Part shown: positions 4,602-19,984 of the stretch, one piece after another | How positions within the stretch are numbered: position 1 is the first letter of the stretch | How the letters are laid out: every line of letters starts with the position of its first letter | Source of the DNA: a virus | Strand: one strand, 5' to 3' | Length of the DNA stretch: 20,269 bases | Virus record (IMG/VR): IMGVR_UViG_3300024518_001265 | Location: 1 to 20,269 of that record | Translations under genes and position numbers: made by a program | Notes under the pieces: model-generated | The model's database searches: none | The model's input: only the letters and a program-made list of their open reading frames with translations | Told to the model about the DNA's origin: nothing

Positions 4602-5510
4602 TTATGCTCCAGGCGATCCGAAGATGCCGCGAGGATCAGACCAGCCGAACGCATAACGCTCGCGGGCCTTGTACCTCACATTACCGGTATCAAAATCCCC
4701 TTCCATCGAAGTCCGAACCGCCGTCCGATTGAAACCTTTCAAACCATTTGGCGCATCAGTCTTGATGAAGAAAGCATCCGTGTCGGTGAGGAAGTGGTTA
4801 ACGACATATCCATCCGGAAGCATACCCATGTTCCGAACAGCATTGATGTCATTATCCGCAGTCCCCGGACGAAGCGTGGATTCCAAAAGCCGATCAGAGG
4901 TAAACTGGAGTTCCTTTGGAACAATCAATTTAACCCCGCTCACAGCAATTTTCAGACCGCGCTCATCGACAAAACCAGCAATATCAATGAGGGCCTGCTC
5001 TAGGCTGGTCTCATTGAGATCCGCTGCTGTCGAAAGCTCATTCCGGAAAGTGCTACCATTGGCAAGAGTATGGGCTGTTGAGCAAAGCTCAAGACCATCG
5101 CCTCCGGTGTAGGTGCTGTCAAAAGCATTGTTAAGAACTGCCGCAGCCTTAACCTGCTTCGTTTGACTCATGCTACGAGCGAGAGCCTTCGTGTATCGGC
5201 TAGCAAGCCGATCATAAAGGTTATCCTCGATGGCTTCTTCCGTAATGGAAAATGCCAAAGCAATCGTCTCCATAGTATACCGCGCCGTGTACACTTCCTG
5301 GGCATCGTCAAACGATATGGCCGCTCCCTCAGATTTGGTGGGTGCCGTCCCAAAACCGGATAGCATAACCTCCTCTTCGAATGCACGGTCAGAACTCTCC
5401 ATATCGAAGATCTGATCGTGCTCGCGATCATAATTATCGTATTCCATACCAAACAAAGCGTTCAGGCCGGGTTCCAACTCTTTTACGAGTTGCGCTCTAC
5501 TTATAGCCAT
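4602..5510 (-). CDS. Major capsid protein (HK97-fold type)
   Basis: This 302-residue protein is the best candidate for the main shell subunit. Features seen are an N-terminal 'MAISRAQLVKELEPGLNALF', 'YDNYDREHDQIFDMESSDRA', then 'YTMETIALAFSITEEAIEDN', 'KALARSMSQTKQVKAAAVLN', a 'VKLIVPKELQFTSDRLLEST' segment, and the C-terminal 'RYKARERYAFGWSDPRGIFG'. The 'R..YAFGW.DPRGI.GSPGA' ending is characteristic of a capsid family in phages with P22-like portals. It lacks a long N-terminal prodomain, consistent with the separate scaffold gene upstream. An AGGAGGG site eight bases before the ATG supports the start. A hairpin directly follows the gene. Confidence in the role is high from sequence pattern and from order scaffold-MCP. 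Confidence 0.88.
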   Translation of the reverse strand: MAISRAQLVKELEPGLNALFGMEYDNYDREHDQIFDMESSDRAFEEEVMLSGFGTAPTKSEGAAISFDDAQEVYTARYTMETIALAFSITEEAIEDNLYDRLASRYTKALARSMSQTKQVKAAAVLNNAFDSTYTGGDGLELCSTAHTLANGSTFRNELSTAADLNETSLEQALIDIAGFVDERGLKIAVSGVKLIVPKELQFTSDRLLESTLRPGTADNDINAVRNMGMLPDGYVVNHFLTDTDAFFIKTDAPNGLKGFNRTAVRTSMEGDFDTGNVRYKARERYAFGWSDPRGIFGSPGA

Positions 5511-7626: not shown

Positions 7627-8067
7627 TTAAAAATGCAGGATATCTTCGGGATCCTGTACAACGGCTATGACCTCATCGTCATTTAGAATGCGAACCTCGC
7701 CGCCGTCAATCTTGAAACGAGCGCCCGCATAACGACTAAAAATTATCCAGTCCTTCTCCTTGCACCAGGGACCGCTGGGGAACTTAGCTCTGTCCTCGTA
7801 GGCGAGAGATCCGACTTTTAACACATAACCACATACAGTAGCTACAGATTCTCTCTCGATGACCTCATCCGGCAGATAAATACCAGCTTCCGTCTTTCCT
7901 TTACCTCTATACGGCAAGATCAGCAGACGCCAGCCAGTTGGAGTTGGTAAGTGATCAAGGACCGGTCCTAAGTTCTTGGGATCCAGGACGCGCTCCTCTT
8001 TCTTCACATATGCATCCTTTAAGGAAACAAGATTATCCGTGGTTTCCGTATTAGATTTGTCCGTCAT
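7627..8067 (-). CDS. Phage GroES-like co-chaperonin
   Basis: This is a 146-residue protein. After a charged N-terminal extension of about 38 residues it shows a GroES/Cpn10 layout: 'PTPTGWRLLILPYRGKGKTE' followed by 'AGIYLPDEVIERES' (mobile-loop region that would touch GroEL), then 'VATVCGYVLKVGSLAYEDRA', 'WCKEKDWIIFSRYAGARFKI' and 'VRILNDDEVIAVVQDPEDIL'. Bacterial GroES has about 95 residues; the extra length is the N-terminal extension plus an insertion before 'GPWCKEKDW'. Known phage versions such as T4 gp31 replace host GroES to fold the capsid protein; the location just before the scaffold and capsid genes fits this. No GroEL gene is in the window, so host GroEL would be used. A TGATG overlap couples it to the upstream gene. 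Confidence 0.85.
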   Translation of the reverse strand: MTDKSNTETTDNLVSLKDAYVKKEERVLDPKNLGPVLDHLPTPTGWRLLILPYRGKGKTEAGIYLPDEVIERESVATVCGYVLKVGSLAYEDRAKFPSGPWCKEKDWIIFSRYAGARFKIDGGEVRILNDDEVIAVVQDPEDILHF

Positions 8068-11940: not shown

Positions 11941-14364
11941 CTATGTACGTTGTTTCATAATCTCACGCTCACGCGCCGCTTTTATCCTGGCCGCAGCTAT
12001 GTCCTCGGAACTCTGGATGCGTCCTTCACCCAAACTGGCAGCAGTAGCAGCCTTCTGTTGATCAAGAGCCAAACGCTGCTGATCCATCGCAGACTCATTC
12101 TGATCCCTCTGAGCGCGGATGTCCAGATCCCGGCCTTTCAGCGCTATTAAAGGATCTTCCTGTCCCTGCCCGCTCAACTGCTGACCAAGGGCCTTGATCT
12201 CTTGCATACCCTGCGAGATAAGTTCTGCCACCATACCCTCAATCTGCTGGGCTTCTTCTTCACTAGGAGGCCGTCCCTGTAACTGTTGCGTCATTTGACC
12301 CGCTACCTGTTCCTTGGCCCTAACGGAGACATGTTCCATGACATGTTTCTGAAGGGTCATCGCAACTTGAGGCATCTGGAGAACCAAACCAGAGGAACCG
12401 AAAACCATGTGCGCGGTAATATGCGCGTTGTGGTTCTGACCCTGGAAAACAACCAACGGCAAATTCTCCAGGGATTCAGAGTTCTCAATAGCTGGATCCT
12501 TGGGCTCCGGGTCGCCCTCCGCCTCCGGCTTCAAGATAGCGTCAACGTCCTTTATTCCAATAGCCCGATACATCCTCCGGTACGCTTCATACATATTATG
12601 AAGATCCGGGGCAGATTGAGCCAACTGAAGTTCCGTCTGCGCCGTGGCAATACGTTGCGCCATGGAAAAGATATTGGGATCCGATACCGGTATGACATCC
12701 ACGCGCTCATCAAAATCCGACGCCTTTATAGTGCGCTCCGCCCCTACAACATTATACGGATATTCCGCAGGCAAGGTCTGCCCGAAAACATCAGAAAGAA
12801 GAAAGAACTCCTCCTTCTGGGCATAATGCAGCCGCTTATGGATAGCCGACATGACCTTCGCACCCTGTTCAAGAAGCGCAATGGTCGTCCCAACCGGAGC
12901 CTGCTGATTGGCATCACCAACCTGGAGATTTGAAGTTGCAGCAAACCGCTGCCCAGCTTCAACACAAAAGCCCATCAACTGAAACAACGTCGCATCCGCT
13001 CCCTTGTACGGAAGCAGCATCAGGGAATCCCGGATAACGCCCCCCGGTGCGTCAACATCCCTGAACTCACCCGGTGACAACGGATCATCATCATTCTTCA
13101 CCCGTAGTCCCCGCGACTTAAAGCCAGCCGGAAGATTGGACAAAGTACCGGCATCAATCAATTGCCGTAAAGCCGCCGTCGCCGTGCGACTCAAACCACC
13201 AATCATGTGGATCAGGCCAAGGCCGTAAAATCCAAACCCAGGTAAGAATTTAAAATGTACAAAGTACTGCGTTTTCTTCCTGTCCGGGTCATCTGGGCTG
13301 TAGTTCCGCCGGATACTAAGAACCTTACTCCCCTCTATAGAAACCGTAACAATGTACGGGAGCTTTATACCAGTAGGCTCTCCAGAATCATCCGTATCCT
13401 CATAGCCTTCGATGTCCAAATCTACATGGCATTCCAGCAAAGTAATATCCGTATCCAGATAAGACGGCTCTACACCAGAGATTTCGTTCATCTCATCCCT
13501 GACTTCCGAAGGATCAGCCTGAGATGCCGTTACTTCAATATCCTGATAAAAGCCTGCAAGCTGTTTCTTGCGGAGTTCGTTTTCCGTGGTCTGGATAACA
13601 TGCGTCACATTCTCCGCCGTCTCCAGGTCCGTAGCCGTGTACGGAACAATAAGCTGCTCCGCCGGAACAAACCGGCTTACAGCCCGCCCCAGGAAATCAT
13701 CATAATAAACCTTCTTGAAAGTGGAACCCGACAAGGGAAGGTAAAACAGCATCTGATCAAATTCAGGCGTGTATTCCTTCATTATACAGGTGATCTGATA
13801 ATTCATAAAATGCCGAACGCGATCCGCCTGATTCTCAACCTCCGGCGTTATCTTCCCAACAATCTCCGTCCGTACCGGGCCACCCGCAGGCAAAAGCTCT
13901 CCAAACGCCTGTGCCTGAAATTGCGTCACAGCCTCCGCTAAAAGAGGATGCGTCACACCCGTCGCACCCCGGAAGGGCTCCGAGCGTTCCTCGTACTTGA
14001 ACCCTAGAAGCTCCAGACCCGTGCGATAAGCATCTTCCCAATCCTTGCGGCCATCCTTGTTGGCGTCATACTGCTCCGTCAGTTCCGAAGAAATTACAGA
14101 TAAAACCCTGTCATCCAAAACCTCCGCTAGATTCTCGTAAAAGTCACCACCATCTTGGGCCTCGGACCGTGGATCGAAGTCCACAACCACACTGCCGTCC
14201 TCCTCCAATTCAATGTTCAAACCAGGAGCTTCCAGAACAACGTCCTCCTGGATATCAACTTCAGCACCGGAGCCCTCCTCCAAATCAACCGTGGGAATAG
14301 CATCCCGGCGCTCAACCAGAGAACTGGTCCCGAAATTACTGCGAGGCAATGGGGCGCGGGCCAT
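11941..14364 (-). CDS. Portal protein (P22-like)
   Basis: This 807-residue protein forms the channel through which DNA enters and leaves the head. Its acidic N-terminal extension covers about residues 25-75. The conserved start of the portal core follows ('DWEDAYRTGLELLGFKYEER', 'SEPFRGATGVTHPLLAEAVT', 'FQAQAFGELLPAGGPVRTEI'). The middle has 'LPLSGSTFKKVYYDDFLGRA' and 'VHFKFLPGFGFYGLGLIHMI', and the stem/crown region 'IALLEQGAKVMSAIHKRLHY'. The C-terminus (about 640-807) is Gln/Ala/Glu-rich coiled coil ('RDQNESAMDQQRLALDQQKA'). The length is close to the P22 portal (725 residues) plus extensions. It sits two bases after the upstream stop, without a strong ribosome site, so translational coupling is likely. 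Assignment is firm for role, less so for exact subfamily. Confidence 0.88.
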   Translation of the reverse strand: MARAPLPRSNFGTSSLVERRDAIPTVDLEEGSGAEVDIQEDVVLEAPGLNIELEEDGSVVVDFDPRSEAQDGGDFYENLAEVLDDRVLSVISSELTEQYDANKDGRKDWEDAYRTGLELLGFKYEERSEPFRGATGVTHPLLAEAVTQFQAQAFGELLPAGGPVRTEIVGKITPEVENQADRVRHFMNYQITCIMKEYTPEFDQMLFYLPLSGSTFKKVYYDDFLGRAVSRFVPAEQLIVPYTATDLETAENVTHVIQTTENELRKKQLAGFYQDIEVTASQADPSEVRDEMNEISGVEPSYLDTDITLLECHVDLDIEGYEDTDDSGEPTGIKLPYIVTVSIEGSKVLSIRRNYSPDDPDRKKTQYFVHFKFLPGFGFYGLGLIHMIGGLSRTATAALRQLIDAGTLSNLPAGFKSRGLRVKNDDDPLSPGEFRDVDAPGGVIRDSLMLLPYKGADATLFQLMGFCVEAGQRFAATSNLQVGDANQQAPVGTTIALLEQGAKVMSAIHKRLHYAQKEEFFLLSDVFGQTLPAEYPYNVVGAERTIKASDFDERVDVIPVSDPNIFSMAQRIATAQTELQLAQSAPDLHNMYEAYRRMYRAIGIKDVDAILKPEAEGDPEPKDPAIENSESLENLPLVVFQGQNHNAHITAHMVFGSSGLVLQMPQVAMTLQKHVMEHVSVRAKEQVAGQMTQQLQGRPPSEEEAQQIEGMVAELISQGMQEIKALGQQLSGQGQEDPLIALKGRDLDIRAQRDQNESAMDQQRLALDQQKAATAASLGEGRIQSSEDIAAARIKAAREREIMKQRT

Positions 14365-16037: not shown

Positions 16038-18371
16038 CTACCCTAGCATTCTCGGCTGGTCGTATAAAGGTTTGTCTATGAAGCCGCCGAGAGCTTCCTT
16101 ACGGACAGTCTTCAAACGGTCCAAGAGATCCTGATCCCAAACCACATAATTGCGGGTGCCTTCCTTGCCGCCACGGCTCATATGGTCAAAATATTTGAGG
16201 CCAGGGATGCCTAATGAATTAAGGAATTTAGATACCGCCCGCTTAGGATTATAATCCATACGCCCACCGGGCTCATCAATGCCTTCTACCGGCTGTTGGT
16301 ATCCAAATTCTTTTATGGTGGCTCCAAGATCGCCAGATGCGCGTGACCGGATTAGCGACATAGCCGTGGCCCCAAGACCCCGTGTATCCGGCCTACCTTC
16401 AGGAAAATAAGAAGCTAGATAGTTCAGCAGAGACTGAATGTCCTCACCGGTTGGATCTTTGTTTATGTCGGGGATCCAGAGGGCCGTGTTTCCGCGCCCT
16501 GGTATATCCACCGTCTTAAATCCAGCCTCCGGATGGTTCCTTAGTCGCTTCTGTATTCTGTCTATAACGGGAGCAAGGGCATCTTGAATCGATTTGGGCT
16601 GCTCACTCAGCGGCGCATCGTAATCCAGAAGCCTGTCGGTATCGGCTTCGGGGATGTCAAGTTGGTAGAAAGCACCACTGTGTTCACTAATATCGCCCGA
16701 TTTTGCGGGCCTTGCGTAGATGTCCCAATAATCAGAAAGTGCCTTCATGTCTTGATTTGCTATCCCGCCCGTACCATGTCCAGCCTTCTCGGTTGCAGCT
16801 ATTTGATCCCGCCACCGTGCCATGCGTCTATCTATCTGTCCCCTTAAATAATTTTCCATGTCCGGGCTCTGACCCGACATTTTGAAAGATAAATAACTTT
16901 CAATGTCCTGCGCGGAATCTAGAGCCATGTGCCCAGCGCGACCTTCTGGAAAATCTACACCCGTAACTCGATATTTTGAACTCCCGCTAGGAGCGCCGGG
17001 AATAGTTGATGTTAAGGATTCTTGGTAGCCCTTCCCTACTTTAGGCGCTTCCGCTGCATAAAACCCCCACCCATAAGCTGCTGCGCCTTCGCCCGTGCCT
17101 TGCTTATCCAGCCGTGCCCTACCCTCTGGGTATCCCGGTTCCGGAGCCCACTGGTATGGACCACCGTGAAAGAGGGAGCGATACTTCTGCAAATCCGGGA
17201 GGGACATTATGCCACTGGGCTCCTGGTCTCCAAAGCCAAGTGCATCCTTGGCCCATTCAAGACCACCCGCAAACCCCTCCGGGAAATTCTGGCGACCCGT
17301 CCACTCCTGCGCCGCATCAATACCCGCCTCAAGACTCCCATAGGCCTGCTTGGCATAATCTTCCGCCACCTGCCGCTGATCCGGACTAAGTTCGTTCCAG
17401 GCCATCCGCGCCAAAGCAAACCAGGGAGCCTTCCGTAACGCACCAATCCCCCCCTGTAACTTGCCCTTGGGCCGTGGTTTGTCACGCGGTCCCAGTAATT
17501 GGGAGGCAGCGGAAGCTGCGTCTATTACGGCGGGTAAATTAGACTGCTCCGGGGGCCGGGGTTCGTCAGGAACCGCGCCACTGATTCCTAGCTTCTGCTT
17601 GACGGCCCACTCAGGAATCCAGGTTGTCGCGTCTTCCCGGACAACTTTGTAATAAGGAACATCCGGCCCTTTAATGAATACACCTTCACGGGGTCTTGAA
17701 CCTTCTAAAAGCCCCTCCGGGCGCACCATCCTCTCCGTTATTTGAAAAGGAAGTTGGCCTGCTCTTAAAGACTGCTCTGTTGCAACCCTGTCTCCGATTC
17801 CATACTTCCAGGGATGCTTGGCGCTCTTTTCTGCAAGCAACTCCGCCCCGCCAGCGACATCCTGTTGAAAATCACCATAGGCTTCTCCCAGGACACGCTC
17901 TTCCCGGACCTTCGACAAGTCCGTTATGTTCTGGGGCCGTGGTTCGTCAGGGACCATTATGTCAACAAGATCTTTTCCATAACGCTTCTTTAAAAATTCT
18001 TCATAAGTCATTGGAGGAGCCAGTAAACCGTGTTCCTTATACCAGCTTCGATCAAAAATTAATTCTGCACCAGTGGGCGCGGGCTCGAAATCTAGAGCCA
18101 ATCTTCTATAAAGCCCTCCCCTTTCTTTAGAGGGAGGAATCTTCACGTTTAGATTCTCCGGGGCATCTGAAAGATTGAGGAAAGAATCAAGAACGTCGTT
18201 CATAACGGCATCGGATTGTAGAATCTTGAGTAAATCCGGATTCTCAACGACTTGCAGTGGTAAATCCGGATCTCTTTGGGCAGGGTGTAAATTTCTCAAA
18301 TACTGGTTATATGCAGCATCAACCGTCTCTTCTGTAGGTGGCCCTTCAGGAAATTTGGGTGTGTCAGCCAT
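16038..18371 (-). CDS. Large polyvalent-type protein with ADP-ribosyltransferase-like (ART) signature
   Basis: This is a 777-residue protein. The ATG at 18371 is chosen over one 11 codons upstream because it has GGAG five bases before it and overlaps the TerL end by 8 bases. The N-terminal ~390 residues are probably a virion or spacer region with Pro-rich VPDEPRP linkers (two exact, one related). From about residue 399 the sequence reads 'SLFHGG', 'KQGTGEGAAAYGWGFYAAEA' (about 424-443), then about 280 residues with 'DTDRLLDYDAPLSEQP', and finally 'LGIPGLKYFDHMSRGGKEGT' and RNYVVWD. This HG / GTGEGA.AYG.G.Y.AE / EGTRNYVV.D set is characteristic of the ART domains of phage 'polyvalent' proteins; H402, Y438 and E737 would be the likely H-Y-E residues. 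Such enzymes transfer ADP-ribose from NAD to host targets (as T4 Alt does after injection). Catalysis here is inferred. Confidence 0.7.
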   Translation of the reverse strand: MADTPKFPEGPPTEETVDAAYNQYLRNLHPAQRDPDLPLQVVENPDLLKILQSDAVMNDVLDSFLNLSDAPENLNVKIPPSKERGGLYRRLALDFEPAPTGAELIFDRSWYKEHGLLAPPMTYEEFLKKRYGKDLVDIMVPDEPRPQNITDLSKVREERVLGEAYGDFQQDVAGGAELLAEKSAKHPWKYGIGDRVATEQSLRAGQLPFQITERMVRPEGLLEGSRPREGVFIKGPDVPYYKVVREDATTWIPEWAVKQKLGISGAVPDEPRPPEQSNLPAVIDAASAASQLLGPRDKPRPKGKLQGGIGALRKAPWFALARMAWNELSPDQRQVAEDYAKQAYGSLEAGIDAAQEWTGRQNFPEGFAGGLEWAKDALGFGDQEPSGIMSLPDLQKYRSLFHGGPYQWAPEPGYPEGRARLDKQGTGEGAAAYGWGFYAAEAPKVGKGYQESLTSTIPGAPSGSSKYRVTGVDFPEGRAGHMALDSAQDIESYLSFKMSGQSPDMENYLRGQIDRRMARWRDQIAATEKAGHGTGGIANQDMKALSDYWDIYARPAKSGDISEHSGAFYQLDIPEADTDRLLDYDAPLSEQPKSIQDALAPVIDRIQKRLRNHPEAGFKTVDIPGRGNTALWIPDINKDPTGEDIQSLLNYLASYFPEGRPDTRGLGATAMSLIRSRASGDLGATIKEFGYQQPVEGIDEPGGRMDYNPKRAVSKFLNSLGIPGLKYFDHMSRGGKEGTRNYVVWDQDLLDRLKTVRKEALGGFIDKPLYDQPRMLG

Positions 18372-19827
18372 AATAACTCCGGATGTAAGTAGACGGCTCG
18401 TCATCTACCCAATCATCACTCGGTAATTGTACGAAGTTACCCTGGCGATACCGCATCAGGGCCTGCGTCGTGCTGTCTACAAGATCATCATACTCGCCAT
18501 TGGGAAATGCCGAACACTCCTCAATAACCTCGTCAGCCCAACGTTCGTCCGGTGCCCATATCATACCACTCTCAAATAAGGGCGATACAGCATGAACACG
18601 CGATACCTTATCGTTACCCTTGCTCGGTGTAAAGTTCACAACAGGAATACCTAACTGACGAAGCTCCTGCGTCAAAGGCAGCCCCGACGCCTTCGCCTCA
18701 ATTATTACCGTCTCAGGCTCCCAGAACTTATACTGCTCCAAAGCCGCAACCTTCAATTCCGGAAAATCCCAGCGGCCCTTCTTGGAATCCAAAAGAATTA
18801 AATTCGCCGGGCCATCCTGAACCGGATAAAAAACCCCCCACGTCGTAATCGCCGAATAATCCGCCGTCTCCCGCTTGCTAAAAGCCGTGTCATAACTCTG
18901 TATGATATACTCAAGCTGGGGAACCTCATCCTCCTCCCAACGCTGCCACCACTCCTTCTTGATAATCGCACCCTCTTCCGAAGTGGGATTCTGCTGCCAC
19001 TGTGCATTCCACTTCGAAACCGACAAGGAAGCCCTCACACCCTCCAGTTCCTTAATATCCCAGTATTCCGGCCAACACGCCTTGCCCGAAGGCATCACCG
19101 CAGGAAATTCAACAACCTCCCACTGATCCGCAAGAGCATCATACCCCTGTGCCTTGATTACCTTCGCCGTCAAATCCTTCAACGACCACCGCGTCATAAC
19201 AATAACAATCGCTCCCCCAGGCTGAAGACGCTGCCGGGGACCCGACGTATACCACTCATACGCATGCTCCATCGCCGTCTCGGATAATGCATCCTGCTCC
19301 GAATGCGGATCATCAATAATCAATAAATCCGCACCACGGCCAGTGATCGCACCACCAACACCCGCTGCAAAATATTCCCCGCCATGATTCGTGGACCACC
19401 GGCCCGCAGCCTTGCTGTCCGACTGCAAACTTACCCCTTCAAAAAGATTCTGGTACTCCACCGAATCAATGAGATTGCGAACCTTCCTGCCAAAGTTTAC
19501 CGCTAACTCCGCCGTGTGCGTCGTCTGAATTATCTTGGTGCGCGGCTCACGGCCAATGATCCACGAGGGAAAAAGATAGCTCGCAAACTCGGACTTAGTG
19601 TGCCGGGGAGGCATGTTGATGATAAGACGCTTGTTCTTCCCCGTAGCAATGTCCTCGAACTTCTCCGCAATCATCGTGTGATGCGCCCCACCAATGAAAT
19701 CAGGCCACATCTTTTTGACATATTTTAGAAAATCATCACGGCATCCCTGAACCTCATCCATCTGAGCTAATCGAAGCTCAAGCTTCAGTCTCCGCGATTC
19801 AATGTCTGGGGTTTCTACACGAAGCAT
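18364..19827 (-). CDS. terL: Terminase large subunit (TerL)
   Basis: This 487-residue packaging motor has both domains intact. The ATPase has Walker A-like 'MPPRHTKSE' (72-80; the PPRH.KS form typical of Terminase_6), Walker B 'LLIIDD' (168-173) followed by PHSEQDA, and the coupling segment 'VMTRW' (210-214). The C-terminal RNase H-like nuclease has the acidic residues in 'SYDTAFSKRETADYSAITTW' (D313), 'VIIEAKASGLPL' (E377) and 'YDDLVDST' (D447/D448/D451). Length is normal. An AGGAG site lies six bases before the ATG. Upstream is a perfect ParB-binding palindrome. No small subunit gene is visible; it may lie beyond the right edge. Downstream the ART-like gene overlaps the end by 8 bases. Confidence 0.95.
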   Translation of the reverse strand: MLRVETPDIESRRLKLELRLAQMDEVQGCRDDFLKYVKKMWPDFIGGAHHTMIAEKFEDIATGKNKRLIINMPPRHTKSEFASYLFPSWIIGREPRTKIIQTTHTAELAVNFGRKVRNLIDSVEYQNLFEGVSLQSDSKAAGRWSTNHGGEYFAAGVGGAITGRGADLLIIDDPHSEQDALSETAMEHAYEWYTSGPRQRLQPGGAIVIVMTRWSLKDLTAKVIKAQGYDALADQWEVVEFPAVMPSGKACWPEYWDIKELEGVRASLSVSKWNAQWQQNPTSEEGAIIKKEWWQRWEEDEVPQLEYIIQSYDTAFSKRETADYSAITTWGVFYPVQDGPANLILLDSKKGRWDFPELKVAALEQYKFWEPETVIIEAKASGLPLTQELRQLGIPVVNFTPSKGNDKVSRVHAVSPLFESGMIWAPDERWADEVIEECSAFPNGEYDDLVDSTTQALMRYRQGNFVQLPSDDWVDDEPSTYIRSYYG

Positions 19828-19865
19828 ATAGGACTCCTAACACAAGAATGTTTCACGTGAAACAT
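19815..19865 (-). other. 16-codon leader frame starting inside parS
   Basis: The palindrome itself contains an ATG that opens a 16-residue frame (MFHVKHSCVRSPICFV) which ends at TAG after crossing the terL start codon. It has no ribosome site. The MFHVKH peptide is simply how a parS reads in this frame, as known from bacterial parS-containing gene starts. Translation is unlikely unless coupled, but would overlap and could influence terL initiation. Confidence 0.2.
19849..19864. promoter_or_regulatory. Canonical parS site (ParB/Spo0J-binding palindrome)
   Basis: The sequence TGTTTCACGTGAAACA is an exact match to the consensus chromosomal parS bound by ParB/Spo0J across bacteria. The flanking bases extend it to a perfect 20-bp palindrome (19847-19866). 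A chance occurrence of an exact 16-mer in 20 kb is of order one in a hundred thousand. It lies 21 bases upstream of the terL start codon, between a possible promoter and the ribosome site, so it could load host ParB on phage DNA and/or act as an operator. A half-site (TGTTTCA) occurs at 19901-19907. No parA or parB gene is present in the window. Confidence 0.9.
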
Positions 19866-19877
19866 TAATAAGGGAAC

Positions 19878-19883
19878 ATTTTA
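19878..19883 (-). promoter_or_regulatory. Possible extended -10 promoter element for the late operon
   Basis: On the coding strand the hexamer TAAAAT is preceded by TGC, giving an extended -10 (TGnTAAAAT). It lies upstream of parS and about 50 bases before the terL start. A good -35 hexamer is not visible at 17 bases. It is in an AT-rich stretch, and no other strong candidate is seen. If used, transcription would begin at or within the parS, making ParB binding a potential block. Confidence 0.3.
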
Positions 19884-19984
19884 GCACAAGTGACCGAATA
19901 TGTTTCATCACGGGTTTATTTGAGCAAAACAAGGCCGAAGCCACCGTTGGGCCGCCGGGGGCCGGGCGCGGCGGGGCGCGGACC

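Follow-up and report, generated by a model that had tools for sequence, protein, structure and literature searches.

The question that this locus raises is why a virus in which no par genes are found should carry, at the head of its late operon, an exact copy of the bacterial chromosomal parS site. The window, by which we mean the whole stretch of DNA that was analysed, is a viral contig of 20,269 bases whose record has no second contig. Its predicted genes lie almost all on the minus strand and run leftward. They include terL, which encodes a large terminase of 487 aa (18364..19827, minus strand; phrog_38 at 1.3e-111, PF17289) and is the first gene of the late operon. The late operon context further comprises, from profile matches, genes for the portal protein (11941..14364, minus strand) and the major capsid protein (4602..5510, minus strand), and the phage also encodes a GroES-like co-chaperonin (7627-8067) that is annotated likewise in cultured relatives.

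The parS box and the terL leader

Scanning the window for the parS 16-mer TGTTTCACGTGAAACA, we found it at 19849-19864 with 0 mismatches and found no second match at ≤3 mismatches. The 16-mer lies within a 20-bp palindrome, AATGTTTCACGTGAAACATT, which is perfect from 19847 to 19866 and whose symmetry stops short of 22 bp. In dinucleotide shuffles, parS matches at ≤3 mismatches are expected 0.08 times per window, and an exact match is far rarer still. As a further control we used the reversed palindrome, ACAAAGTGCACTTTGT, which occurs in one stretch in all of IMG/VR, as against at least 120 stretches for parS, and gave zero matches in every genome search. The window parS is not due to chance. 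An earlier note on this DNA had claimed that the 16-mer equals the chromosomal parS consensus, that the palindrome is perfect over 20 bp and that coincidence is negligible, and these observations bear out each of the three. The same 16-mer, TGTTTCACGTGAAACA, is the parS of alphaproteobacteria such as Hyphomonas neptunium, and the Caulobacter variants read t/cGTTt/cCACGTGAAAca (PMC7022226).

Between the 16-mer and the terL ATG there are 21 nt, so that the site heads the late operon, as had been claimed, and this placement recurs in relatives. The intervening DNA contains a palindrome, AGGAGTCCT (19830..19838, minus strand), which overlaps the terL ribosome-binding region; the corresponding sequence in relatives is AGGGNCCC-like. 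In four near-complete marine genomes AGGGNCCC occurs 2-4 times per genome, one copy always standing directly before the terL ATG. On the far side of parS, comparison of leaders identified an extended -10-like element, TGCTAAAAT (19878..19886, minus strand; TGCTATAAT in relatives), as a putative late promoter, and a conserved leader block, GGCTTCGGCCTTGTTTTGCTCAAATAA (19916..19942, minus strand). The proposal that parS stands between a promoter and the ribosome site of terL holds in part: a promoter-like block, an extended -10 resembling TGCTATAAT, lies just upstream and is common to the relatives, but a sigma-70 consensus scan of the window returned no promoter, TGCTAAAAT included, and a sigma-70 promoter defined by consensus was rejected.

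Conservation, placement and turnover among relatives

Thirty-three close relatives with upstream sequence were picked on TerL similarity alone (84-89% identity). In 28 of them the exact 16-mer heads the terL operon; four have a near-variant (three with one mismatch and one with the symmetric TGTTCCACGTGGAACG) and one (L127) is without parS. After removal of near-copies, 24 leaders anchored on parS gave 1.6-2.0 bits in all 16 parS columns, against 0.1-0.7 bits for most flanking positions; conservation extends somewhat into the two bases that adjoin the 16-mer on each side. Judged by these bits per column, the 16-mer is under purifying selection, and the conservation footprint belongs to the parS box, not to the leader.

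The earlier note had proposed this search, and had named two findings that would undo its claim: absence of the palindrome from the same position in all close relatives, and a chimeric host fragment upstream of terL. Neither is the case. Dozens of independent contigs share the leader-terL arrangement of the window, which shows the junction to terL to be genuine. An assembly artefact or a chimera with host chromosome might be suspected from the GC-rich tandem-repeat DNA just upstream, in which the contig ends (20056..20269, hypervariable between relatives), but tens of contigs that are independent of one another have this junction, the repeats are the phages' own DNA, and we consider this explanation ruled out for all practical purposes. 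Most close relatives examined (L122-L155) have such GC-rich non-coding repeats ahead of the late leader; their presence is kept and their sequence is not, and numerous contigs break inside them.

By TerL, the nearest cultured relatives are 023Pt_psg01, DSL-LC04 and the pelagiphages HTVC027P and HTVC023P (59-67% identity; genomes of 57-62 kb). In HTVC027P (W02) a site with one mismatch lies 4.1 kb upstream of terL, and no parS was found in the other three. Three further TerL scans, blind to parS, extended the survey. The site is present in 43/80 L083-like loci, in 48 of the 62 L042-like loci and in 36/80 loci of the L044-like freshwater family, whose TerL has ~28% identity to that of the window, and in all of these it lies upstream of terL. 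Pooling 300 terL loci at ≤2 mismatches, with 457 kb of upstream and 673 kb of downstream sequence, we counted 165 distinct sites upstream of terL, within 2.3 kb (143 of them exact), and zero downstream. The natural variants include the T5/A12 change that is known in bacterial parS. The freshwater family carries arrays of 2-5 exact sites within ~2.3 kb upstream of terL (L359-L391, L413, L422), and near-complete relatives (50-61 kb) have one site if marine, or one array if freshwater, almost always upstream of terL; the exceptions are G043, where the sole site is found 5 kb past the start of terL, and G096, which has sites to either side of the gene. Some loci (L236, L243, L244, L249-L258, L357) have paired sites ~24 bp apart, one being TGTTTCACGTGAAACA and the other TGTTCCACGTGGAACA, which suggests local duplication or co-loading. 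One genome, G149 (57,546 bp; L451-L453), has a 301-bp terminal direct repeat and is likely complete, and it ends just upstream of parS and terL.

On the TerL tree the distribution of parS needs 14 state changes, at least eight of them forced by well-supported branches, compared with ~37 when labels are shuffled; a few of the 'none' calls may reflect short contigs (e.g. L312). When sister leaders are aligned, parS is seen to come or go as a clean cassette beside a retained promoter-like block. L042-clade leaders carry the insert ~45 bp upstream of the TTGTTAACTG...GCATATTT block, which is retained; L083-clade leaders carry a similar insert downstream of the promoter-like block; and in the window clade parS is downstream of the block and adjoins the start codon. 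Where a gene has been inserted between parS and terL, as in some loci, parS remains with the leader. Since many relatives without the site retain the leader, parS is accessory; it keeps to the late-operon head without needing a fixed geometry. The fixed spacing to one promoter that characterizes a classical repressor operator is thus not found, and we rejected a fixed-geometry operator on the ground that parS lies upstream of the block in one clade and downstream in two. The variable placement is suggestive of a sliding clamp rather than of a classical operator, without being proof of one.

Two other explanations for the position were tried and rejected. GC skew shows no switch at parS, which speaks against a replication origin there, and parS does not simply occupy the largest non-coding gap, its gap ranking anywhere from 1 to 14.

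Par genes and other parS-bearing phages

Profile searches found no ParB_N domain (PF02195) in the window, in 47 relatives or in 36 large records, no HTH_ParB domain (PF17762) in the window or in relatives (28-29 records), no ParA (AAA_31, PF13614) in 28 records other than that of the window, and no phage integrase in 28-29 records. Control genomes gave matches in these par and integrase searches. Many of the searched records, the window included, are fragmentary, and the absence of par genes rests mainly on the near-complete ones. The claim that there is no parA or parB nearby stands for every near-complete relative tested, and, the window being a fragment, it is also on these relatives that we looked for a parB elsewhere on the genome, with the same outcome. 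A phage-encoded ParB was therefore rejected, and neither the parB nor, in the 28 records, the parA of a phage-encoded ParABS of the P1/N15 type was found. Among the first 100 parS-bearing IMG/VR records listed, four have any ParB_N match.

With no integrase and no prophages found, we infer that these phages are virulent. A scan of a genome collection for prophages gave only one 16-kb Maricaulis MAG contig, whose best parS match has 5 mismatches. That contig (L214, NZMJ01000056.1) encodes a 69% TerL relative, has no parS at ≤4 mismatches in the 13 kb examined, and is probably a co-binned phage.

Several known systems share features with this one. One is the chromosomal parS of ParABS (consensus of Livny et al. 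2007, as used in PMC10197239), with an identical 16-mer and similar tolerated changes; here, unlike there, the site stands on a phage genome in single copy, with no parA/parB and beside late genes instead of the chromosome origin. The parABS systems of P1, N15 and mycobacteriophages (PMC7157519) likewise place a centromere-like site on phage DNA, but they encode their own ParA and ParB, of which we found none. The alphaproteobacterial phages with CtrA sites, for which lytic deferment has been proposed (PMC9437464), have similarly captured the sites of a host cell-cycle protein in lytic phage regulatory DNA, although the host protein and the genes are different. The precedent is the virulent Bacillus phage phi29, whose genome host Spo0J (=ParB) is reported to trap in spores (Meijer 2005, as related in PMC9437464). 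Phage phi29 has no par genes of its own and reportedly uses the host chromosomal ParB, and the present phages are of this kind in being virulent, in carrying a host-type parS and in having no par genes found. There, however, the setting is spore entrapment in a sporulating host, in which Spo0A does the silencing; the present phages are marine, with no known sporulating host and one site in the late-operon leader. In Goe1, a phi29-like phage, one exact and one 1-mismatch parS lie within the lysin and connector genes, away from the late promoter. Unlike the protein in our case, which would be the host's, KorB comes from a plasmid and recognizes another operator. Repression of plasmid promoters by ParB proteins of the KorB type (PMC7022226) has in common with the present case that loading of a ParB-family protein at a single site acts on a promoter nearby.

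Exact parS sites also occur in the cultured phages DSS3P8 (3), Bromius (3), vB_BcoS-136 (4) and Butyrivibrio virus Arian (3); the corresponding loci L479, L480, L481 and L484, with 3-4 exact sites each, are from cultured phages of Ruegeria, Lactobacillus, Bacillus cohnii and Butyrivibrio. The filamentous phage genome of the inovirus bajarodino virus 3 (L482, 6183 nt) contains six. In open-licence full text on the 16-mer and on phage use of host ParB, we found no report of a conserved parS in a late-operon leader. The novelty asserted in the earlier note was nevertheless too strong a claim, given the parS sites of Goe1 and the reported phi29/Spo0J case.

Possible roles of a putative host-ParB site at the late-operon head

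We hypothesize that the parS of the window is a selected loading site for host ParB that acts at the head of the late operon, a reading to which we assign a probability of about 0.62. Binding itself is very probable, judging from the sequence identity and the conservation footprint: the host's chromosomal ParB would recognize the 16-mer as a parasitic centromere on a virulent phage without par genes. ParB-CTP is known to close into sliding clamps. On the phage such clamps would slide a few kb each way and so cover the late promoter, the leader and terL; for comparison, Caulobacter ParB spreads ~2 kb from a single site (PMC5815017). At low phage copy number relative to ParB, the clamps would tie the genome to host ParA/SMC and lower transcription at the head of the late operon; replication would then multiply parS, titrate ParB and release the late genes. 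In Pseudomonas aeruginosa, the intergenic parS3 and parS4 repress adjacent genes through ParB (PMC7022226). That clamps, given binding, retain the genome and dampen transcription of the late genes until replication titrates ParB is a hypothesis that we advance tentatively, as somewhat short of even odds. The site may possibly serve both as a borrowed centromere and as a copy-number sensor. The further proposal, that the host ParB-CTP clamp as copy-number sensor constitutes a host-encoded, phage-placed lysis timer, repeatedly gained and lost as a small cassette, is a doubtful one. Against a role at the late promoter we count that HTVC027P, G043 and the phi29-like phage carry parS away from it, and that the position relative to the promoter-like block differs between clades.

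These last observations bear also on a different reading, in which host ParB and ParA would anchor and partition the phage DNA in slow-growing or dormant cells or in a carrier state, late transcription being unaffected and the leader merely a tolerated non-coding spot. Parasitic partition of this sort has its precedent in phi29, where PMC9437464 credits host Spo0J with spore entrapment, and it would accommodate both the sites that other cultured phages carry away from late promoters and those on either side of the promoter-like block. Yet each genome or contig checked has some 11-23 intergenic gaps of >50 bp, and parS nevertheless keeps coming back to the late leader, both among separate clades and within the distant freshwater family; moreover, searches for an integrase (28-29 records) gave none, and no further gene for persistence was encountered. 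Of the roles that the earlier note had listed (condensing, tethering or shielding the DNA, timing the late genes, titrating ParB), this recurrent placement favours those bound to the locus, and we regard pure partition as unlikely, if the most serious of the rivals. Phage parS copies could instead sabotage the host, drawing ParB off the chromosome and blocking segregation and division. Extra parS on plasmids is harmful to Caulobacter, in which one strong parS on a low-copy plasmid lowers viability by as much as ~1000-fold and a plasmid with sites 3+4 is lethal (PMC5815017), and the arrays of 2-5 sites in freshwater relatives would suit this purpose. A single site, however, would be effective only after replication, when the cell is already near lysis, and the fixed position at the late-operon head is left unexplained, which makes sabotage quite improbable in our view.

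Less probable again is loading of SMC/condensin, whereby host SMC, recruited by ParB-parS, would compact phage concatemers or resolve them close to the packaging genes. ParB-parS is a known SMC loading platform (PMC10197239) and parS adjoins terL, but no evidence was found for a pac or cos at parS, and complete relatives such as HTVC023P are without any site. The site might, finally, be an operator for some phage-encoded or other host regulator and equal parS by coincidence. Its position in a promoter and leader region is operator-like, but the same 16-mer with similar tolerated changes occurs in unrelated phages of very different hosts, the position relative to the promoter-like block varies, and no HTH_ParB or ParB_N protein was found; we give this explanation very little credence.

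A loading site for host ParB would extend the idea drawn from phi29, that a virulent phage can exploit the host protein that acts at the centromere, beyond a single sporulating model to phage lineages that are widespread in sea and fresh water, across which parS has repeatedly been gained at one locus. The inovirus and the several tailed phages suggest that host-type parS on viruses is under-recognised, and cultured carriers with known hosts exist in HTVC027P (Pelagibacter; one mismatch), DSS3P8 (Ruegeria) and Goe1 (B. subtilis). Our observations suggest that ocean phages borrow the host's tag-reading proteins, lacking their own. If host ParB does control or hold these genomes, a chromosome-segregation CTPase would become a determinant of lytic timing or of persistence.
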